This document shows, piece by piece, positions 788-30,100 of a stretch of DNA of 64,000 nucleotides. The notes under the pieces are model-generated. The model made no database searches and was not told where the DNA came from. It saw only the letters and a program-made list of their open reading frames with translations. The first letter of the stretch is position 1. Every line of letters begins with the position of its first letter. The stretch lies in the NCBI RefSeq assembly GCF_038630985.1, contig NZ_CP152049.1, positions 4,545,501 to 4,609,500 on the forward strand, given 5' to 3'. The stretch is from Paenibacillus sp. FSL H8-0548 (GTDB taxonomy: Bacteria > Bacillota > Bacilli > Paenibacillales > Paenibacillaceae). The position numbers and the translations under genes were made by a program.

Positions 788-1516
788 TCACTGCGGTATA
801 CGTTCCATCGCTTGCTTGAGCCGGAAGCTATCGCCCGTGTATGAAAGAATATGCGCGTGATGCACAAGGCGATCTACCAAAGCGGACGTCAGTTTCGTGT
901 CTCCAAAAATCGATGTCCATTGACCGAACTCTAGATTGGATGTGACAATCACACTCTGCTGTTCGTAGCAATCGGCAATCACATTAAATAACAACTCTGA
1001 GCCCGTTTGGCTAAACGGAACATAGCCCACTTCATCCAAAATGATGAGATCCATCTTTTTCAGCTTCTCCCGAAAGCGGCTGAGCGTGCCCGCCGCAAAC
1101 TTCTCTTGCAGCAATGACACTAAATCGGAAGCTCGAAAAAATTGAACGCCATATCCTCTCCTACATGCCTCTACGTCGAGCGCAGTTGCCATATGCGTCT
1201 TACCTGTCCCAACCGCCCCCATTAGTAGCAAATTTTCACGCTGCGTCAGCCACCTCATATCGAGCAACGTCTCAAGCGTACAACCGACGGGAAATGAAAT
1301 GTGCTCTCGAACGTACCCCTCAAAGGTTTTTAAATGCGGGAATCCAGCCTGTTGCACGAGTTTCCCTAGCCGGGCTCGTCGTCGTCCTTCGCGCTCCGCC
1401 AGTAGCAATTGTTCGACAAACGCTTGCGTTTGCTCATCCTGTTGCTGCGTTACATAATCGACTACGTGGGCCAAACGAAGCTGCTTGCATAGGTCTGCCA
1501 GTTCCGGTTTCATCAT
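788..1516 (-). CDS. istB: IS21 IstB-like ATP-binding helper of transposition
   Basis: This 242-residue AAA+ ATPase is the IstB helper that forms oligomers on target DNA and activates the IstA transposase. Walker A reads GAVGTGKTH at about residues 100-108. A Walker B-like DLIILDEVGY follows at about 155-164, then a sensor region with VTSNLEFGQW. Length and domain order are normal for IstB. The ATG (part of ATGATG) overlaps the istA stop codon by one base, preceded by GGGAGTGAG, so translation is probably coupled. No truncation or frameshift is seen. Confidence 0.95.
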   Translation of the reverse strand: MMKPELADLCKQLRLAHVVDYVTQQQDEQTQAFVEQLLLAEREGRRRARLGKLVQQAGFPHLKTFEGYVREHISFPVGCTLETLLDMRWLTQRENLLLMGAVGTGKTHMATALDVEACRRGYGVQFFRASDLVSLLQEKFAAGTLSRFREKLKKMDLIILDEVGYVPFSQTGSELLFNVIADCYEQQSVIVTSNLEFGQWTSIFGDTKLTSALVDRLVHHAHILSYTGDSFRLKQAMERIPQ

Positions 1517-2994
1517 CAGCTCACTCCCATTAGTCGATCATATTGCTGTAGCGTTACCGTTGCTTGGGCGCCTGGCGGAGAGATCGTTTCGCTCCACGCT
1601 GCCGGTATGTCGCGGTTTGCTTGCACGAGTCCAAGTGCTGCCGTTAATTGCGTGACTGTAGCTTCGCTCGATGCTGTCGTCAGCACCTCGGCGATCTGCG
1701 CGATCGAGTAGACGCCGCACCAATGCGCTAGCGCTTGCAACCGCTCCTTACGTGAGGTAAGGTCAGCAACACTGGCATAAACCTGTACCACCTCCGGCAG
1801 CATCCGAATGAACTGCGAATGGCTCACGCTGCGCGGCTTTCGGAGCAGGTTAGCGAAGACTTGTGCCCACGGCACCTCGGCTGTACTGCCGGTATATGGA
1901 CGCGGCACCTCCCTCACCCGTTCATGCTCTGTCGTTAAGATCGTGAGTCGGTCCCAGAAAGTCTGGGTCAGAACTTCGCTACCTGGCGAAACGAGACCAA
2001 CTAGCGGGATGGTGGCGCCTTCAAATCGAATCTCGCCGTACTTGTTTACGACCGCTGCGCCAAGTCGGAACGGTTCGTAGGTTTCTTCTGGCAATGTCAG
2101 CAGTTGTACGCGGTCAGCCTCCCATAGTTCGGCGATGCGGACACCCTTGGCAAAGTGCAATCGCTCGCGGTCCTGCCGGGCTTTCTCGGCGAAATACGCG
2201 GCCAATTGCTCATGGTCTTCGTAAAGTGGAATGGGTACCGCCCAGTTGCGCTTGGCGTAGCCGCACTTGCTCTCCACATGCCCTTTCTCGTGACCGCTAT
2301 ACGGATTACAAAATACAGCCTCTATCCGGTAGTGCGCGCAAAAGCGTTGGAAGCCCTCTGTGAGCTGACGCTCACCATGCTTTTCAATGTGGACGACAGC
2401 GGCCGAAAGATTGTCGAACCAAACGCGCCGCGGAACGCCGCCCATCTGCTGAAAACATTGCTTCATCCCTTCAAGGAAGCATTCCTGGTTCTCCGCCGGT
2501 GTTGGGTAGACGAACGCCGTGTTGCTGGATGGAAAGGAGACAACGAGGAGCTTGTAGGTCACGAGTTGCTGATCGCGACTGACTTGCATTGTAGTAAAGT
2601 CCACTTGTGCTTCTCCTGGTGGATGTTCAAGTCGCTCGTATGTCTTCGCACGCTCTAACTGCATTCTGCTCTTCTGCAGTTGGACGTAAGAGAGGACCGT
2701 CCGTTGACCGCCAGTAAACGCATACTCTGCTTGCAGGCGTTGAAAGATTCGGACGCCGGTGTGCCTTTGTTTGCGCGGGAGCAATTGATCCTCTTCCAGC
2801 CAAGCATCCACAATCTCCATGTACGGCCCCATCACTGGGCTGTTGCTCTTGCGTTTACCAAGTCTTTTGTTCCAATCACTCTGATCCGCATATCGCTTGG
2901 CTGTTCTCCAATGAACACCCACCTGCCTAGCGATATCGCTCACCGATAGTCCTTCTGCTTCACGTAGAAATTTGATATACTCTTGTTGAGGCAT
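1516..2994 (-). CDS. istA: IS21 IstA transposase
   Basis: A DDE transposase of the IS21 family that cuts and joins the element ends. An N-terminal helix-turn-helix (about residues 10-30, LSVSDIARQVGVHWRTAKRY) is followed by an rve/integrase core. Core motifs include EAQVDFTT, with the first catalytic Asp, then VWFDNLSAAV and a downstream Glu in NPYSGHEKGHVES. I chose the ATG at 2994 because AAGGA lies nine bases upstream; an ATG nine bases earlier at 3003 is almost on top of that site. The stop overlaps istB. The frame is intact, at about 492 residues. Confidence 0.93.
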   Translation of the reverse strand: MPQQEYIKFLREAEGLSVSDIARQVGVHWRTAKRYADQSDWNKRLGKRKSNSPVMGPYMEIVDAWLEEDQLLPRKQRHTGVRIFQRLQAEYAFTGGQRTVLSYVQLQKSRMQLERAKTYERLEHPPGEAQVDFTTMQVSRDQQLVTYKLLVVSFPSSNTAFVYPTPAENQECFLEGMKQCFQQMGGVPRRVWFDNLSAAVVHIEKHGERQLTEGFQRFCAHYRIEAVFCNPYSGHEKGHVESKCGYAKRNWAVPIPLYEDHEQLAAYFAEKARQDRERLHFAKGVRIAELWEADRVQLLTLPEETYEPFRLGAAVVNKYGEIRFEGATIPLVGLVSPGSEVLTQTFWDRLTILTTEHERVREVPRPYTGSTAEVPWAQVFANLLRKPRSVSHSQFIRMLPEVVQVYASVADLTSRKERLQALAHWCGVYSIAQIAEVLTTASSEATVTQLTAALGLVQANRDIPAAWSETISPPGAQATVTLQQYDRLMGVS

Positions 2995-3117
2995 TTTCAG
3001 CATTCCTTCCAGTCTCCTTCGTCAGTTCTCGCAAACCTAACGATAGGAGGATAATAGGGTGCTGGCAAGTGTCTTTTCTCTTTGCCGTTACTTGAGCATT
3101 TTTACGCTGCAACACTC

Positions 3118-3246: not shown

Positions 3247-3660
3247 GTTACTATCCAACGAGCAGGAATCAAAAAGAATAACGCCGTTAAGGAACTCGAA
3301 AATGTTCAGCGCGAAATCAGTAAATTGGACAGAGAACTTGTACAACTTACGAGGAGTTGGACGAACGGCGACATCGATAAAGAAATGTTTAATGCTTGTT
3401 CTGTAGCGGTCAAAAATGAACGCCAAGTACTAGAGGAACGAAGTACGCGGCTTCAAACAGAAATCACTCACGAACTCAATACGGAATCGCGTGTATCGGT
3501 ATTCAAGGCGGAGTTAATGAAGTTTGCAGCGCTAGACGTAAGCAATGAAGAAACCCTACGAGATATGATTCACAAGATGATTAATCGTATTGAAGTTCAA
3601 TTTGACGGTTCTATCGAAATTAGTTACAACTTCCAAAACCCACTAAAACAAGGGGCGTAG
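3247..3660 (+). pseudogene. C-terminal remnant of a large serine recombinase
   Basis: Open reading without a convincing start encodes the coiled-coil and tail of a large serine recombinase. The segment holds ...NAVKELENVQREISKL, then QLTRSWTNGDIDKEMF, and ends DMIHKMINRIEVQFDG...SYNFQNPLKQGA. This pattern is typical of the last 120-140 residues of phage and transposon recombinases of about 500 residues. The catalytic N-terminus is absent; the IS21 right end lies about 100 bp upstream, with stops in between. It is a fragment, not a functional gene. Confidence 0.75.
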
Positions 3661-4005: not shown

Positions 4006-4260
4006 TTATAATTTTTCTTTAATTTGTTTTATAGTCAATCCTTCTTCTTCTTTCATTACACGAATTTCCTCAAGTCGCTTTAGTGCTAATTCACGCGGGT
4101 ATCTTCTTGTCAGTCTTATATCCTCTTGCTCAAATGAGATCATATCCTCTTCCGTGTAATATTTAATGGTACTGTATCGAACTCCAGAAAGTTCAACCAA
4201 CTCACTGATACTCACATACTCTGATGATGAAATTTTATCTAAACTTCTTTTTCTCCCCAT
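4006..4260 (-). CDS. MerR-type helix-turn-helix protein, small
   Basis: An 84-residue DNA-binding protein. Residues about 12-35 (YVSISELVELSGVRYSTIKYY) form a MerR-like winged helix-turn-helix. A short TEEDMISF turn and RRYPRELALKRLEEI helix follow, and the C-terminal helices (EEGLTIKQIKEKL) match the start of the MerR dimerisation helix. There is no effector domain. I chose the ATG at 4260 because AGGGGTGA lies six bases upstream; an upstream ATG would overlap the preceding gene. It lies 34 bp after the GPP34 gene and is probably co-transcribed with it, so it may regulate that operon. This is inference. Confidence 0.75.
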   Translation of the reverse strand: MGRKRSLDKISSSEYVSISELVELSGVRYSTIKYYTEEDMISFEQEDIRLTRRYPRELALKRLEEIRVMKEEEGLTIKQIKEKL

Positions 4261-4294: not shown

Positions 4295-4936
4295 CTATAT
4301 TCCAGAATCAAGATTTATGAGAGCTGTATAAATCGTTCTAATTTTTTTATAAATGTCCTCTTTACGTAATATCTCTAGTTTTTGCTTTAAAGTTTTTTGT
4401 TCGTAATCAGAAAAATAATCGTTTAACATATTTTTAATGTTTAAAAATAACACCAAGGCTAATGTATGATCTTCTACATTCCCATGTTCTAATAACTCAG
4501 CTCGTATTTTCTCTACGATGTGGTTCCGTGTATTGGCTACATCCAAATATTTTTTAACTGGAACAATAAATAAAACTTCCGTATTTTCAATCTCTAGAAC
4601 TCCTTTATCCGCAAGGCTTTCTATAACCATTTTATAAATTTCTTTTTGTTTAAAGTAGTAAAAGTAAGAAACCCACTCCTTAAGTTTCTTTGGTTTCTCA
4701 GCAGTAATAATCTCGAGTAATCTGTCCAGATATTTTTCACCTGTGGATGCTGAGTTAGAAATTCTGACTGTATCATCGTCTTCAAATGTAACATTGCCAT
4801 TTATAGAAAGTTCCACTATACAAGCCATTACCGTATACAAGCCAACATGCATTCGAAAAATAGACTTTAGCATATTAGTTTCACTATCTAATGCAAGTAA
4901 GACAAACTCTTGGGGAATTGATAAATTTTTCAACAT
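4295..4936 (-). CDS. GPP34 (GOLPH3/Vps74-like) family protein
   Basis: A 213-residue protein with the pattern of the GPP34 domain. The start LSIPQEFVLLALDSETN matches the bacterial family's typical 'L..EELLLLALD...G' opening, and a hydrophobic region (VGLYTVMACIVEL, SINGNVTFED) and a later LADKGVLEIE helix-strand follow. Eukaryotic GPP34 proteins bind phosphoinositides and Golgi glycosyltransferases; bacterial roles are mostly unknown. The start at 4936 has AAAGGATGA eight bases upstream. Codons are AT-rich compared with neighbours beyond 6 kb. The leader is unusual: 28 bases upstream of the start codon begins a 147-bp array of seven-base repeats. Confidence 0.75.
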   Translation of the reverse strand: MLKNLSIPQEFVLLALDSETNMLKSIFRMHVGLYTVMACIVELSINGNVTFEDDDTVRISNSASTGEKYLDRLLEIITAEKPKKLKEWVSYFYYFKQKEIYKMVIESLADKGVLEIENTEVLFIVPVKKYLDVANTRNHIVEKIRAELLEHGNVEDHTLALVLFLNIKNMLNDYFSDYEQKTLKQKLEILRKEDIYKKIRTIYTALINLDSGI

Positions 4937-4964
4937 GGAAATATCATCCTTTCGAAGGTTCTTC

Positions 4965-5111
4965 ACTTACTACTTACTACTTACTACTTACTACTTACTA
5001 CTTACTACTTACTACTTACTACTTACTACTTACTACTTACTACTTACTACTTACTACTTACTACTTACTACTTACTACTTACTACTTACTACTTACTACT
5101 TACTACTTACT
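4965..5111 (+). repeat. Perfect 21-copy heptanucleotide array in a gene leader
   Basis: Twenty-one exact head-to-tail copies of ACTTACT (AGTAAGT in the sense of the leftward gene) fill 147 bp with no mismatch. The array lies between a likely sigma-A promoter (5111-5138) and the ribosome binding site of the GPP34 gene, so it would make up almost the whole untranslated leader. Because seven is not a multiple of three, the plus strand reads as a 21-base, seven-residue periodic peptide, which creates spurious reading frames. Perfect copies imply recent or ongoing slippage. Confidence 0.95.
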
Positions 5112-5138
5112 TTATAGTACTAAATACAAAAAGTCAAA
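5111..5138 (-). promoter_or_regulatory. Probable sigma-A promoter of the GPP34-MerR operon
   Basis: Read leftward, TTTGAC (5133-5138) and TATAAA (5111-5116) are separated by 16 bp. An alternative pairing, TTGACT with TAAAGT, has 17 bp. Transcription would start inside the first repeat units of the heptamer array. Confidence 0.55.
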
Positions 5139-5244
5139 GGGTTTATTAATCATTTTGGGGGTTCAACTTCAAAATTAGTGCTTGACAAACATTGACCCGC
5201 AGATGTAACGTGTCAGCGACGCTTTATTTCGCTCGATGCGGGCT

Positions 5245-15534: not shown

Positions 15535-15562
15535 AGAAAAAATACAAATTGAATATTTTATT

Positions 15563-15649
15563 CACTAGGGGAGTTTAACGGCTGAGATAGAGCGCATGCT
15601 CTGGACCCTTGGAACCTGATCTGGATCATTCCAGCGGAGGGAAGTGGAG
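15563..15649 (+). ncRNA. TPP riboswitch (THI element) of thiM-thiD
   Basis: The conserved core is present: CTAGGGGAG, then GGCTGAGATAG, CCCTTGGAACCTGATCTGG and a final CCAGCGGAGGGAAGTGGA. These are the pyrimidine- and pyrophosphate-sensing helices of the thiamin pyrophosphate aptamer. A 20-bp terminator follows, so TPP should stop transcription before thiM. Confidence 0.95.
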
Positions 15650-15683
15650 CAGGATCATCCAAGCGCTTAGAACCTAGCTGGAT

Positions 15684-20030: not shown

Positions 20031-20042
20031 CAAACAAGGAAA

Positions 20043-20133
20043 TCCACTAGGGGCGCCATCACGGCTGAGATAAAGCGATATGCTTTTGTCCCTTTGAACC
20101 TGATCTGGGTCATGCCAGCGTAGGAAAGTGGGA
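20043..20133 (+). ncRNA. TPP riboswitch (THI element) of thiC
   Basis: The core is complete: CACTAGGGGCGCC, ACGGCTGAGATAAAG, CCCTTTGAACCTGATCTGG and CCAGCGTAGGAAAGTGGGA. A terminator follows at 20273. The start codon of thiC is more than 500 bases further down. Confidence 0.95.
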
Positions 20134-20272
20134 CTGTGCGTTTATTTTAAATGCGCGTGAGGTGTGCTATGCCGCATTCGGCTGTATTTTAGCAGGAATG
20201 AGACCGGATGGCAGAGCCAAGGGTCGGTTGTTTCGGACCCTTGCAGAATACTTGCGCATGACGACACATTTC

Positions 20273-26212: not shown

Positions 26213-26256
26213 AACGCAAAAACGACGATGTCACCTGACGGGACAATCGTTTCGCA

Positions 26257-26290
26257 TAGTTTTTTATAGAGGGAGTTCGCGAACCTCTCC
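26257..26290 (-). ncRNA. preQ1 class I riboswitch
   Basis: Read leftward, GGGAGAGGTTCGCGAACT continues into CCCTCTATAAAAAACTA. This is the class I pattern of a short stem followed by an A-rich tail that folds back as a pseudoknot. A promoter with TTTCCA and TATAGT (17-bp spacer, 26355-26383) lies upstream, and a terminator follows before queC. Confidence 0.93.
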
Positions 26291-26427
26291 CGGCTGCCAA
26301 TAAAGTCCTAAGACTAGGGGCCGGAATTTCATCTTCAGTTGTTCATTCTTCTGTACTATAGCATAGAGCAAGCAGAATGGAAACCGCTAGTATTTACGAG
26401 ATAACATGAGTTCATACTGCTTTTTCC

Positions 26428-27195: not shown

Positions 27196-30100
27196 TCAAT
27201 CCATTCTCATGAAAATTTTATAAATAACTACGGCTGCTTCTGCTCTTGTTGCTTCAGATAACGGAGCAAATATACCATTACCCTTACCGTTGATAATTCC
27301 TGCAGCCTGCATTACGGCTACACTCCTCTGTGCGTATTTCGATATGCTCCTATGATCGATGAAGGTGGACTCTCCCGTTTCACTTGTTTTTAGCCCAATA
27401 TGCTCCATCACTTTATAAGCCATCACAGCCATATCCTGTCTTGTGATCTTGTCTTGAATACCAAAGCTGCCGTCTGGTCTGCCGCTTATGATGCCTAATT
27501 GAGAGGCAGTCGCAACTTCATCATAATACCATGCGCCCTCCTTCACATCACTAAATGTCGAGGTCGCATTCGCATCAGTCAAATCAAACAAATTCATAAG
27601 CATCGTAATAAATTCTGCTCTTGTCACGAGTCCTTCTGGCGAGAAACGTTCTTCTCCTATGCCTTGAATGATTCCTCTTGCTGCCAAGCCTTCAATTGGG
27701 TCCTTTGCCCACGCAGCATTCACATCCTTGAAGCTAATGTCCGAATATGCTGCTGCATAATTGCTAAAATGCTTAGGCTTGAATTCGACCTTGCCCGTTT
27801 CCGGATTGTATCTGCCATTCATCACAGTCTCGAGCTCACTGCTGTCATTAATGTAATAAACGATCAGCTTATGCGGATTCTCCCCGTTTTGAAGTGTGTA
27901 ACTCAGTGCGACTTGAACGTCGTTACTGCCATTAAATTGACTAACCTTCTTACCATCTATCTCGAGAGTAAAATCATAGACATTAACTCCCCCCAGCTTC
28001 GCTTGAATATCTGCCGGCAAGCGGGTTATATCAACTTTTATTACAGTAATGCTGACGCTTCGCGCATCCGCTGCATGTTTAGCTATAAAATCAGTTGAGA
28101 TGGTTACCGCAGCAAGTCCAGTATCCACTTCAATGCTTTGATTCAGCTTACTCTCATTTGCCAGAATTTTTTCCACTGGAACATCCACTTTTACTTCCCT
28201 TGCGTCTTCCGTGCCTTTAACCTTAATTTTCAACTTCCCGTCTAAAATACGCTCCAACGCTTTATTTAGCGTTTCCGCAGCTAGTTGAACCGTAGTCGAA
28301 CCTTTGGCATCGATCACAGGCTGCACATTCACTTCACCATTGCTATCGATCTCAGCTTTAGGAGCAACTGGAGTTGGATTAGCAGTCGGTATCGGTGCTA
28401 CATATGTTGGTTCTGGACTTGCCGTCGGTGTCGGTACTGCGTCTGTTGGTTCTGGACTTGCCGTTGGTGTTGGTGTTGGATCTGTTGGATCTATCTGACT
28501 AAGATAAGTTACTTTTATCCAACCTACCGCAGGTTTGTCATTTCCCCTTTTTACAAGCTTTACTTCTAACAAACCATCCTTAACCTCTGCTATGAATTCT
28601 TTAATTTCCCGCTTGTCGCCAGTAACATATTCCTCCAGTACCAACTCGTGCTCGATCAAAATATCCATGATCCTGCCGCTGTGGTCCCAAGGGTCATCAA
28701 AACCGAATTCGATCTTATATTTCCCTTCTGGCACTTCAAAATGGTAAGCAAGCCCTTTTCCCATTTCATCCCCATCATATTGACGGATGGATAGATACGG
28801 ATCGGTTTCATCACTTTTCGCCCAAGTTAAATCATCATCAGCAATATACCCCCAAGAAAATCCAGTAACCGAATCTTTCCCAAATGGTTGGTCTGCCAGT
28901 GACTGCTTTATGCCGATTAAGACACCGTCTTGAATAATTTGAGCTCCTGCGTCAACATAATAATAAACATTTGGGTCAGAAGATCCAGTTGGCTTTGCTG
29001 TTAATTCTTGCGACGCCTCACTTACGTGATCAACTCGAATCGTTTTCATCACGAAATGATAGGTTACATTATTATCTAGACCACTAACGGTGTACTGCGA
29101 TAAATTCCCAGGTACAACAACAGAATGAGTGTATTGTCCTGCTGCCGTGCCGTATTCAATCTGATAAGAAGCATTAATCGTTTCGTCAAAATATAATGTG
29201 GCCTGATTTTCCCCTGATTTTATACTTTTAATTGTTGGTATGCCCGATGTACCTTGATCATAATAAACGGCTATCCAACTGATCATCGGTTTACTGTTGC
29301 CGGATTTAATGATCTTAACATTAAGCTCGCCATCACTAACTTCGACATCAACAATCCGTTTAATGTCTCTGCCCTGCCCAATAACATAATCGACTAATAC
29401 GTCCTCTCCTTCAACGTTCACCTTCATCATACGATTTGCATCATCCCATGGGTCATCAAAACCTAGCTCAAGCTTATATTTGCCATTCGGCACTTCAAAC
29501 TGGTAGCTCAGTCCATTACCATTGGTATCTCCGTCATACTGCCTAACACTTTCCCACTTCGTTTCATTTTCGTTAGCCCAAGTTTTTCCTTCATCAGCAA
29601 TATATCCCCACTTATAGCCTGTAGTCGGATCTTGTTGGTAACTCTGATCCTCTACCGTATTCCTAACACCAAATTCCTCGCCTTCTTCAAGAGTAGTCTT
29701 GCTGCTGTCTCCGGCGTCAACGTAATACAACAGTTCTTTCTCAACTTTAATCCAGCTTATCATTGGCTTCGTATTTGATTGTTTTACCATTTTCACCGTA
29801 AGCTCTCCATTAGTAACTACGGCATCAAACTGCTTGCTTTCTCGCTTGCTTCCAATAATATAATTGGATGCTTTTGTTGTTCCGTTAATAAGGATATCCA
29901 TAGCCCGGTTGTTATCATCCCACGGATCGTCAAAGCCTAAGATCACTTTGTACGTACCATTTGGCAATGTGAATTTATAGGATAATCCCTTGCCGTTCTG
30001 ATCACCATCATATTGTCGTATCGTGTCGTATGCATCCAGCATATCCGACTTTGCCCAGGTTTTATCATCATCGGCCACATATCCCCATGCTGCACCGGTA

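Follow-up and report, generated by a model that had tools for sequence, protein, structure and literature searches.

Classical MerR proteins bind palindromic DNA as symmetric dimers (PMC5859096). BldC, a pleiotropic regulator of Streptomyces that consists of a MerR-like HTH domain only, is described in the same report as assembling head to tail on direct repeats of varying number, each 9 bp long (AATTXXXX(C)) and present in two to four copies. Head-to-tail filaments have also been described for RdfS, a small wHTH protein of a Mesorhizobium ICE whose N-terminal helix lies in the interface (PMC11963761). Contiguous heptamers are known from TAACTGA arrays of Beggiatoaceae, Cyanobacteria and Bacteroidetes, which reach up to 43 copies and often precede start codons; for those of Beggiatoaceae, an action at the level of RNA or translation, including through stop codons, has been proposed (PMC4679880). 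Among GOLPH3-like proteins, SCO4440 of Streptomyces coelicolor has an influence on peptidoglycan dimers and on wall-deficient cells; the paper presents such proteins as previously undescribed in prokaryotes (PMC12402492).

Direct-repeat sites of HTH-only MerR proteins (BldC) and heptamer arrays (TAACTGA) are thus already known. The literature searched, which included few subscription papers, held no GPP34-MerR system and no MerR-linked heptamer array, nor any description of the TAAGTRR unit reported here, its tie to a MerR gene, the 7-bp step or the link to GPP34.

The GPP34-MerR locus

The locus lies in a window of 64,000 nucleotides (the whole stretch of DNA that was analysed) from Paenibacillus sp. 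FSL H8-0548. Its array of heptamers is proposed, with a probability of roughly 0.75 and from sequence comparison, to be a multi-site operator on which MerR monomers would assemble head to tail, in the fashion of BldC, and repress their own operon. The features concerned are the following.

5109..5137, minus strand: promoter-like TTGACT-17-TAAAGT, 9/12 matches, conserved in relatives
4965-5111, minus strand (operon strand): heptamer array (Tandem Repeats Finder), proposed multi-site MerR operator
4948..4952, minus strand: ribosome-binding site AAAGG of GPP34, read from the sequence
4295..4936, minus strand: GPP34 (GOLPH3-like) gene, 213 aa, ATG at 4936, PF05719; start agrees with relatives
4006..4260, minus strand: MerR-type gene, 84 aa, HTH only, PF13411; proposed array-binding autoregulator

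The preliminary description of this DNA reported 21 perfect ACTTACT units, and Tandem Repeats Finder returns the same array for 4965-5111 (period 7, 21.0 copies, 100% matches, unit ACTTACT on the plus strand). In the operon-strand register common to relatives the unit reads TAAGTRR, with TAAGTGA nearest the gene and TAAGTAG as the remaining 20. The array is separated from the GPP34 ATG by 28 bases, and GPP34 from MerR by 34 bp. A promoter touching the array had also been described: the predicted -10 shares three bases with it, the predicted start site falls inside unit one or two, and the leader would, as had been anticipated, be almost entirely AGTAAGT, with the array placed to control the GPP34-MerR operon. 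Promoter-like matches in this AT-rich stretch are not rarer than chance (6 found, 6.5 expected), so it is conservation in relatives that makes the promoter call credible. From the -35 to the array the distance is 28 nt in seven of eight visible promoters and 35 nt in the eighth; these values are restricted to the window's close relatives, automatic -35 picking having failed at many distant loci. Across 45 loci, the gap between the array and the GPP34 start codon ranges from about 19 to 305 nt. A nearly fixed distance to the -10 and a variable one to the start codon point to an operator of transcription, and its position to autorepression.

Three adjacent ACTTACT units occur only at this array in the whole 7.35-Mb genome, and two adjacent TAAGTRR units with at most one mismatch give 20 matches in the window against a shuffle mean of 0.10. 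A wider MerR regulon was sought in the genome with nearly three units, allowing either purine (R) at the variable positions and as many as two mismatches, and was rejected: beyond the array this search returned a single weak site, with two mismatches. All three plus-strand frames run open through the array, giving TTYYLLL-repeat open frames at 4743-5117 and 4891-5178 that are probably annotation traps rather than genes.

Assignment of the GPP34 domain is firm (PF05719, E 5.5e-28, 98.8 bits, cut-off 29.1); the sequence match to the solved Vps74 is weak (E 0.0043). The MerR protein matches PF13411 (E 2.5e-11, 44 bits against a cut-off of 21.6), and MerR_1 spans residues 18-85 of the 85-residue translation. 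Its model (mean pLDDT 92.1) shows a short N-terminal helix at residues 8-13 and a chain that ends with the last MerR helix; ending after the HTH domain, the protein is devoid of a C-terminal coiled coil or effector domain. Among 20 aligned orthologs the recognition helix RYST[IL]K is invariant and the wing nearly so. Foldseek with the MerR model places BldC (6ama) at rank 32 with a weak E of 0.074, below GlnR, MtaN and SoxR, and BldC is absent among the best 50 VIA-align matches listed for this model.

Like BldC, the window MerR is small, with a MerR-type HTH and neither coiled coil nor effector domain, and appears to have its own site of direct repeats in variable number, a likeness drawn from association rather than from binding. 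Unlike the 9-bp AATTXXXX(C) repeats of BldC sites, the repeats here are 7 bp long, contiguous and present in 3-21 exact copies of TAAGTRR, and a three-unit search finds the array at one locus per genome. The C-terminal coiled coil and effector domain of classical MerR regulators are missing. Whereas a classical MerR operator is a palindrome between the -35 and -10, with a spacer of 19-20 bp, the direct repeats begin on the -10 and continue beyond it, and the promoter has a 17-bp spacer. Nor does the C-free array offer a palindrome of the kind bound by GlnR/TnrA and other MerR-type DNA-binding domains.

TAACTGA arrays are similar in being contiguous heptamers of related sequence (TAACTGA versus TAAGTGA). 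According to their description, however, they form many sets per genome, before unrelated genes and next to the start codon, with no identified binding protein (PMC4679880), whereas the TAAGTRR array is confined to one locus and tied to a promoter -10 and a MerR gene. The predicted N-terminal helix of the MerR protein recalls RdfS, a resemblance only; RdfS differs in being an excision factor, for which the authors found no consensus motif (PMC11963761). SCO4440 is likewise a bacterial GPP34-domain protein, and its gene belongs to a conserved pair in which a putative regulator domain is also encoded. Its partner SCO4439 is, however, a D-Ala-D-Ala carboxypeptidase carrying that domain and not an HTH-only MerR protein, and the accessible sections mention no repeat array (PMC12402492).

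Distribution and copy number

A GPP34 protein search of named genomes gave ten loci, all in Paenibacillus. Across 394 genomes of the host's family, the MerR gene was found in 55, and the GPP34 query, which is insensitive, found 24; this and the other genome sets are samples. In close relatives the heptamer array starts at the -10 and comprises 5 to at least 17 copies when imperfect units are included, some arrays being mixed. Exceptions are L020, with one exact unit, and L021, with a broken GPP34 and a decayed array. The array also precedes distant GPP34 genes that are only about 22-33% identical (22-32% for L024, L026, L029, L031, L033 and the like). The divergent proteins of L031, L033 and similar loci occupy longer open frames of 334-352 aa, with a C-terminal part that carries no domain assignment, and that of L031 matched none of the NCBIfam models.

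Beyond the family, the array recurs in one other class and, within the class itself, in two further families, f18 and f31. Among 398 class genomes, seven from these two families encode MerR relatives at E below 1e-29; at E 1e-15 such relatives are found in 7 of 23 f18 genomes and 2 of 10 f31 genomes. Four of these outlying loci (L206, L208, L209 and L238) combine GPP34 with 4, 5, 6 and 6 exact units, respectively. At L210 two units stand ahead of a shortened GPP34, and L212 has a broken MerR and no array. The other class is represented by G831 (L239), with MerR, GPP34 and four exact units, the sole case in 299 genomes of the phylum. A private or recent simple repeat is rejected by this conservation across relatives: the array is, on the evidence of its sequence and place, an old cis-element.

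A plasmid origin was rejected, the plasmid search having given no similar stretch, as was a phage origin, GPP34 relatives being absent among the phages searched. Of 50 IMG/VR stretches containing three exact units, only L108 (three units) encodes GPP34 and MerR, and this contig may represent host sequence that flanks a provirus.

The preliminary description took copy number to be changeable, and comparison among relatives gives 3 to 21 exact units per locus (median 5, 45 loci), with the window holding the most. This variation is between species, one genome per species having been compared, and the lower limit of 3 is in part an effect of selection, since 27 of the 45 loci come from searches needing nearly three exact units. 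The set leaves out L205, L207 and L210, with 2 exact units each, and L211, with none at the promoter. With loci weighted equally, the unit frequencies are 0.65 for TAAGTAG, 0.18 for TAAGTAA, 0.14 for TAAGTGA and 0.03 for TAAGTGG, the last being rarer than base composition predicts (0.033 versus 0.117). Short arrays of mixed units predominate (37/45).

Co-occurrence and co-loss

Presence of the array was scored by the exact 19-base run TAAGTRRTAAGTRRTAAGT, nearly three units, which occurs in 63 of the 394 family genomes; the reversed-pattern control occurs in 8. MerR and array are found together in 51 genomes, MerR only in 4, the array only in 12 and neither in 327 (contingency p 1.5e-47, which ignores kinship). 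In the 46 co-occurring genomes that were tabulated, the array precedes MerR on the same strand by 0.7-1.4 kb; the five others (G008, G336, G344, G368 and G371) were inspected separately. No GPP34 or MerR was found within 1.5 kb of the 12 array-only runs. The nearest background is provided by L172, L174 and L175 (G133, G181 and G195), purine-rich intergenic TAAGTGA runs of 3-5 units with neither MerR nor GPP34.

In each of the four MerR-only genomes the operon lacks its 5' portion, with at least the first 93 GPP34 residues absent. GPP34 gives no match in G290, where MerR is shortened, and is reduced to 29 C-terminal residues in G303; it is absent before residue 96 in G125 and before residue 94 in G091, both with a stop in MerR.

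Loci that hold one gene without the other bear on the partner of the array. Among the loci used for the GPP34 tree, at least three exact units accompany 30 of 31 GPP34 genes that have a MerR gene, and GPP34 without MerR (L020, L025, L027, which equals L044, and L028) is preceded by 1, 1, 1 and 0 exact units. Whole-genome searches of all four gave no MerR ortholog, although G063, one of their number, encodes a distant MerR-type protein (E 3.8e-9). The tree contains four separate changes of MerR label, forced by well-supported branches, and hence four independent losses. The cleanest pair is L026/L027, a single locus with flanks 84% and 87% identical, at which L027 has lost the MerR gene and the five units of L026 are reduced to one. 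L027 and L044 are identical stretches from one genome with 9% contamination and were counted once. Outside the tree and the loss count are L021/L023 (one genome; broken GPP34, no MerR, two adjacent exact units), and outside the tree also L016, L022, L034 and L045, which are duplicates or partial hits.

The reverse situation occurs in another family, where MerR genes with no GPP34 nearby are preceded by 2 exact units (L205) or by 2 exact and about 2 imperfect units (L207). Loci with GPP34 but no MerR thus keep at most one unit, and loci with MerR but no GPP34 nearby keep the array, which argues that array presence tracks MerR and not GPP34, as judged from the genomes compared. GPP34 and MerR are each able to persist without the other. 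No two adjacent units were found within 1.5 kb of 15 MerR-type proteins of other subfamilies (L213-L227). A counter-example is L211, where MerR (51% identical) and GPP34 are both open and the array is missing; the wing of this MerR is unlike that of the aligned orthologs.

A proposed operator and its alternatives

In the proposed mechanism, each TAAGTRR heptamer would be one MerR binding unit, and binding would be directional, in tandem and head to tail. The operon strand of TAAGTRR is C-free and can form no inverted repeat with G-C pairs, which argues for a head-to-tail arrangement rather than a symmetric dimer. The recognition helix and the array unit are both constant across the 20 aligned orthologs. 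The array begins at the -10 and extends over the predicted start site, so MerR bound to it would be expected to block RNA polymerase, giving negative autoregulation of GPP34-MerR. Direct binding, head-to-tail assembly and repression are what we infer, with repression preferred to activation on position alone. On DNA with 10.5 bp per turn, a step of 7 bp would by simple arithmetic set neighbouring protomers 240 degrees apart and place three of them in two turns. Since BldC takes up 9 bp for each protomer, packing on the 7-bp unit would have to differ, or some units would stay unfilled.

That the strength of control is set by copy number, itself changeable through slippage, is speculation, and so is the idea that GPP34 supplies the signal lacking in a sensor-less MerR. 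A fuller version, in which a MerR filament advances in 7-bp steps, copy number is an evolvable dial of autorepression and membrane GPP34 lifts the filament, is doubtful. If true, such an expandable operator would link a gene switch to GOLPH3-like proteins and add a DNA-binding geometry new to MerR proteins, and a real 7-bp step would mean MerR packing on DNA unlike that of BldC. Within about 1.2 kb the locus would combine regulator, operator and target, a package present in 51 of 394 family genomes and beyond, and it would give a regulatory handle on bacterial GOLPH3-like proteins, little known so far. A simple-sequence array is here tied to a DNA-binding protein through co-occurrence and co-loss, and natural variants of 3 to 21 copies make repeat-length tuning of expression testable.

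The preliminary description had suggested that the array could be a phase-variable or length-tuned leader. On that reading a private, recent contingency repeat would alter GPP34 expression by slippage, without a dedicated binding protein. The window array does look as slippage predicts, with 21 nearly homogeneous copies, the longest among 45 loci; copy number varies between species, and contig ends interrupt the array in L019 and G318. Given its length and near-homogeneity, the window array probably grew by slippage, and that part of the proposal stands. Its privacy does not: unit and place are conserved over deep divergence, in three families and the other class, and array loss goes with MerR loss instead of being random. 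The short, mixed arrays that predominate would, moreover, slip less. A leader governed by slippage alone is consequently improbable, and an operator role and an effect of length are compatible with each other. An RNA or translational element, with transcribed repeats that bind an RNA-binding protein or act through stop codons, is quite improbable. Each TAAGTRR unit does contain the stop codons TAA and TAG/TGA/TAA, the array is predicted to be in the transcript and always in one orientation, and TAAGTGG, in which the second stop codon is lost, is the variant that is rarer than expected. The -10 distance, however, is the nearly fixed one and the start-codon distance the variable one, predicted leader folding is weak (z -1.6), no Rfam family was found at the array, and it accompanies the gene of a DNA-binding protein.

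The remaining alternatives accept a bound protein and change its action or identity. MerR on the array could activate the promoter instead of repressing it, as classical MerR proteins often do, and some homologous -10 elements are weak, such as TAAAGT in the window. The spacer is an ordinary 17 bp, and the array occupies the -10 and the sequence beyond it rather than the interval from -35 to -10, which makes activation unlikely. That the array serves a partner other than MerR, such as GPP34 itself or a host factor, would suit the GPP34 genes that accompany nearly all arrays, but is highly improbable: no more than one unit is present in 4/4 genomes with GPP34 and no MerR, and the array is kept in 2/2 loci with MerR and without GPP34. 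GPP34 as the partner was rejected on these one-gene loci.

Neighbouring elements

About 1 kb downstream of the GPP34-MerR operon lies an IS21-type element (788-3003, minus strand); it encodes an IstB-like ATPase (PF01695) together with an IstA-like protein that has an integrase core. A 111-aa open frame at 3325-3660 (plus strand) matches nothing in Pfam and, in NCBIfam, reaches SA1320 below the cut-off (E 0.0073); we take it to resemble the C-terminal end of a serine recombinase, perhaps a mobile-element remnant. Farther along the window are two TPP riboswitches (15557-15659 and 20039-20143, both plus strand), a PreQ1 riboswitch (26250-26293, minus strand) and a 39-bp tandem repeat at 28385-28492 (2.8 copies, 82% matches). 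In P. endophyticus (G008, record L016), a frame resembling a small membrane exporter follows MerR (L010, 2499-2978); none was seen in the window.
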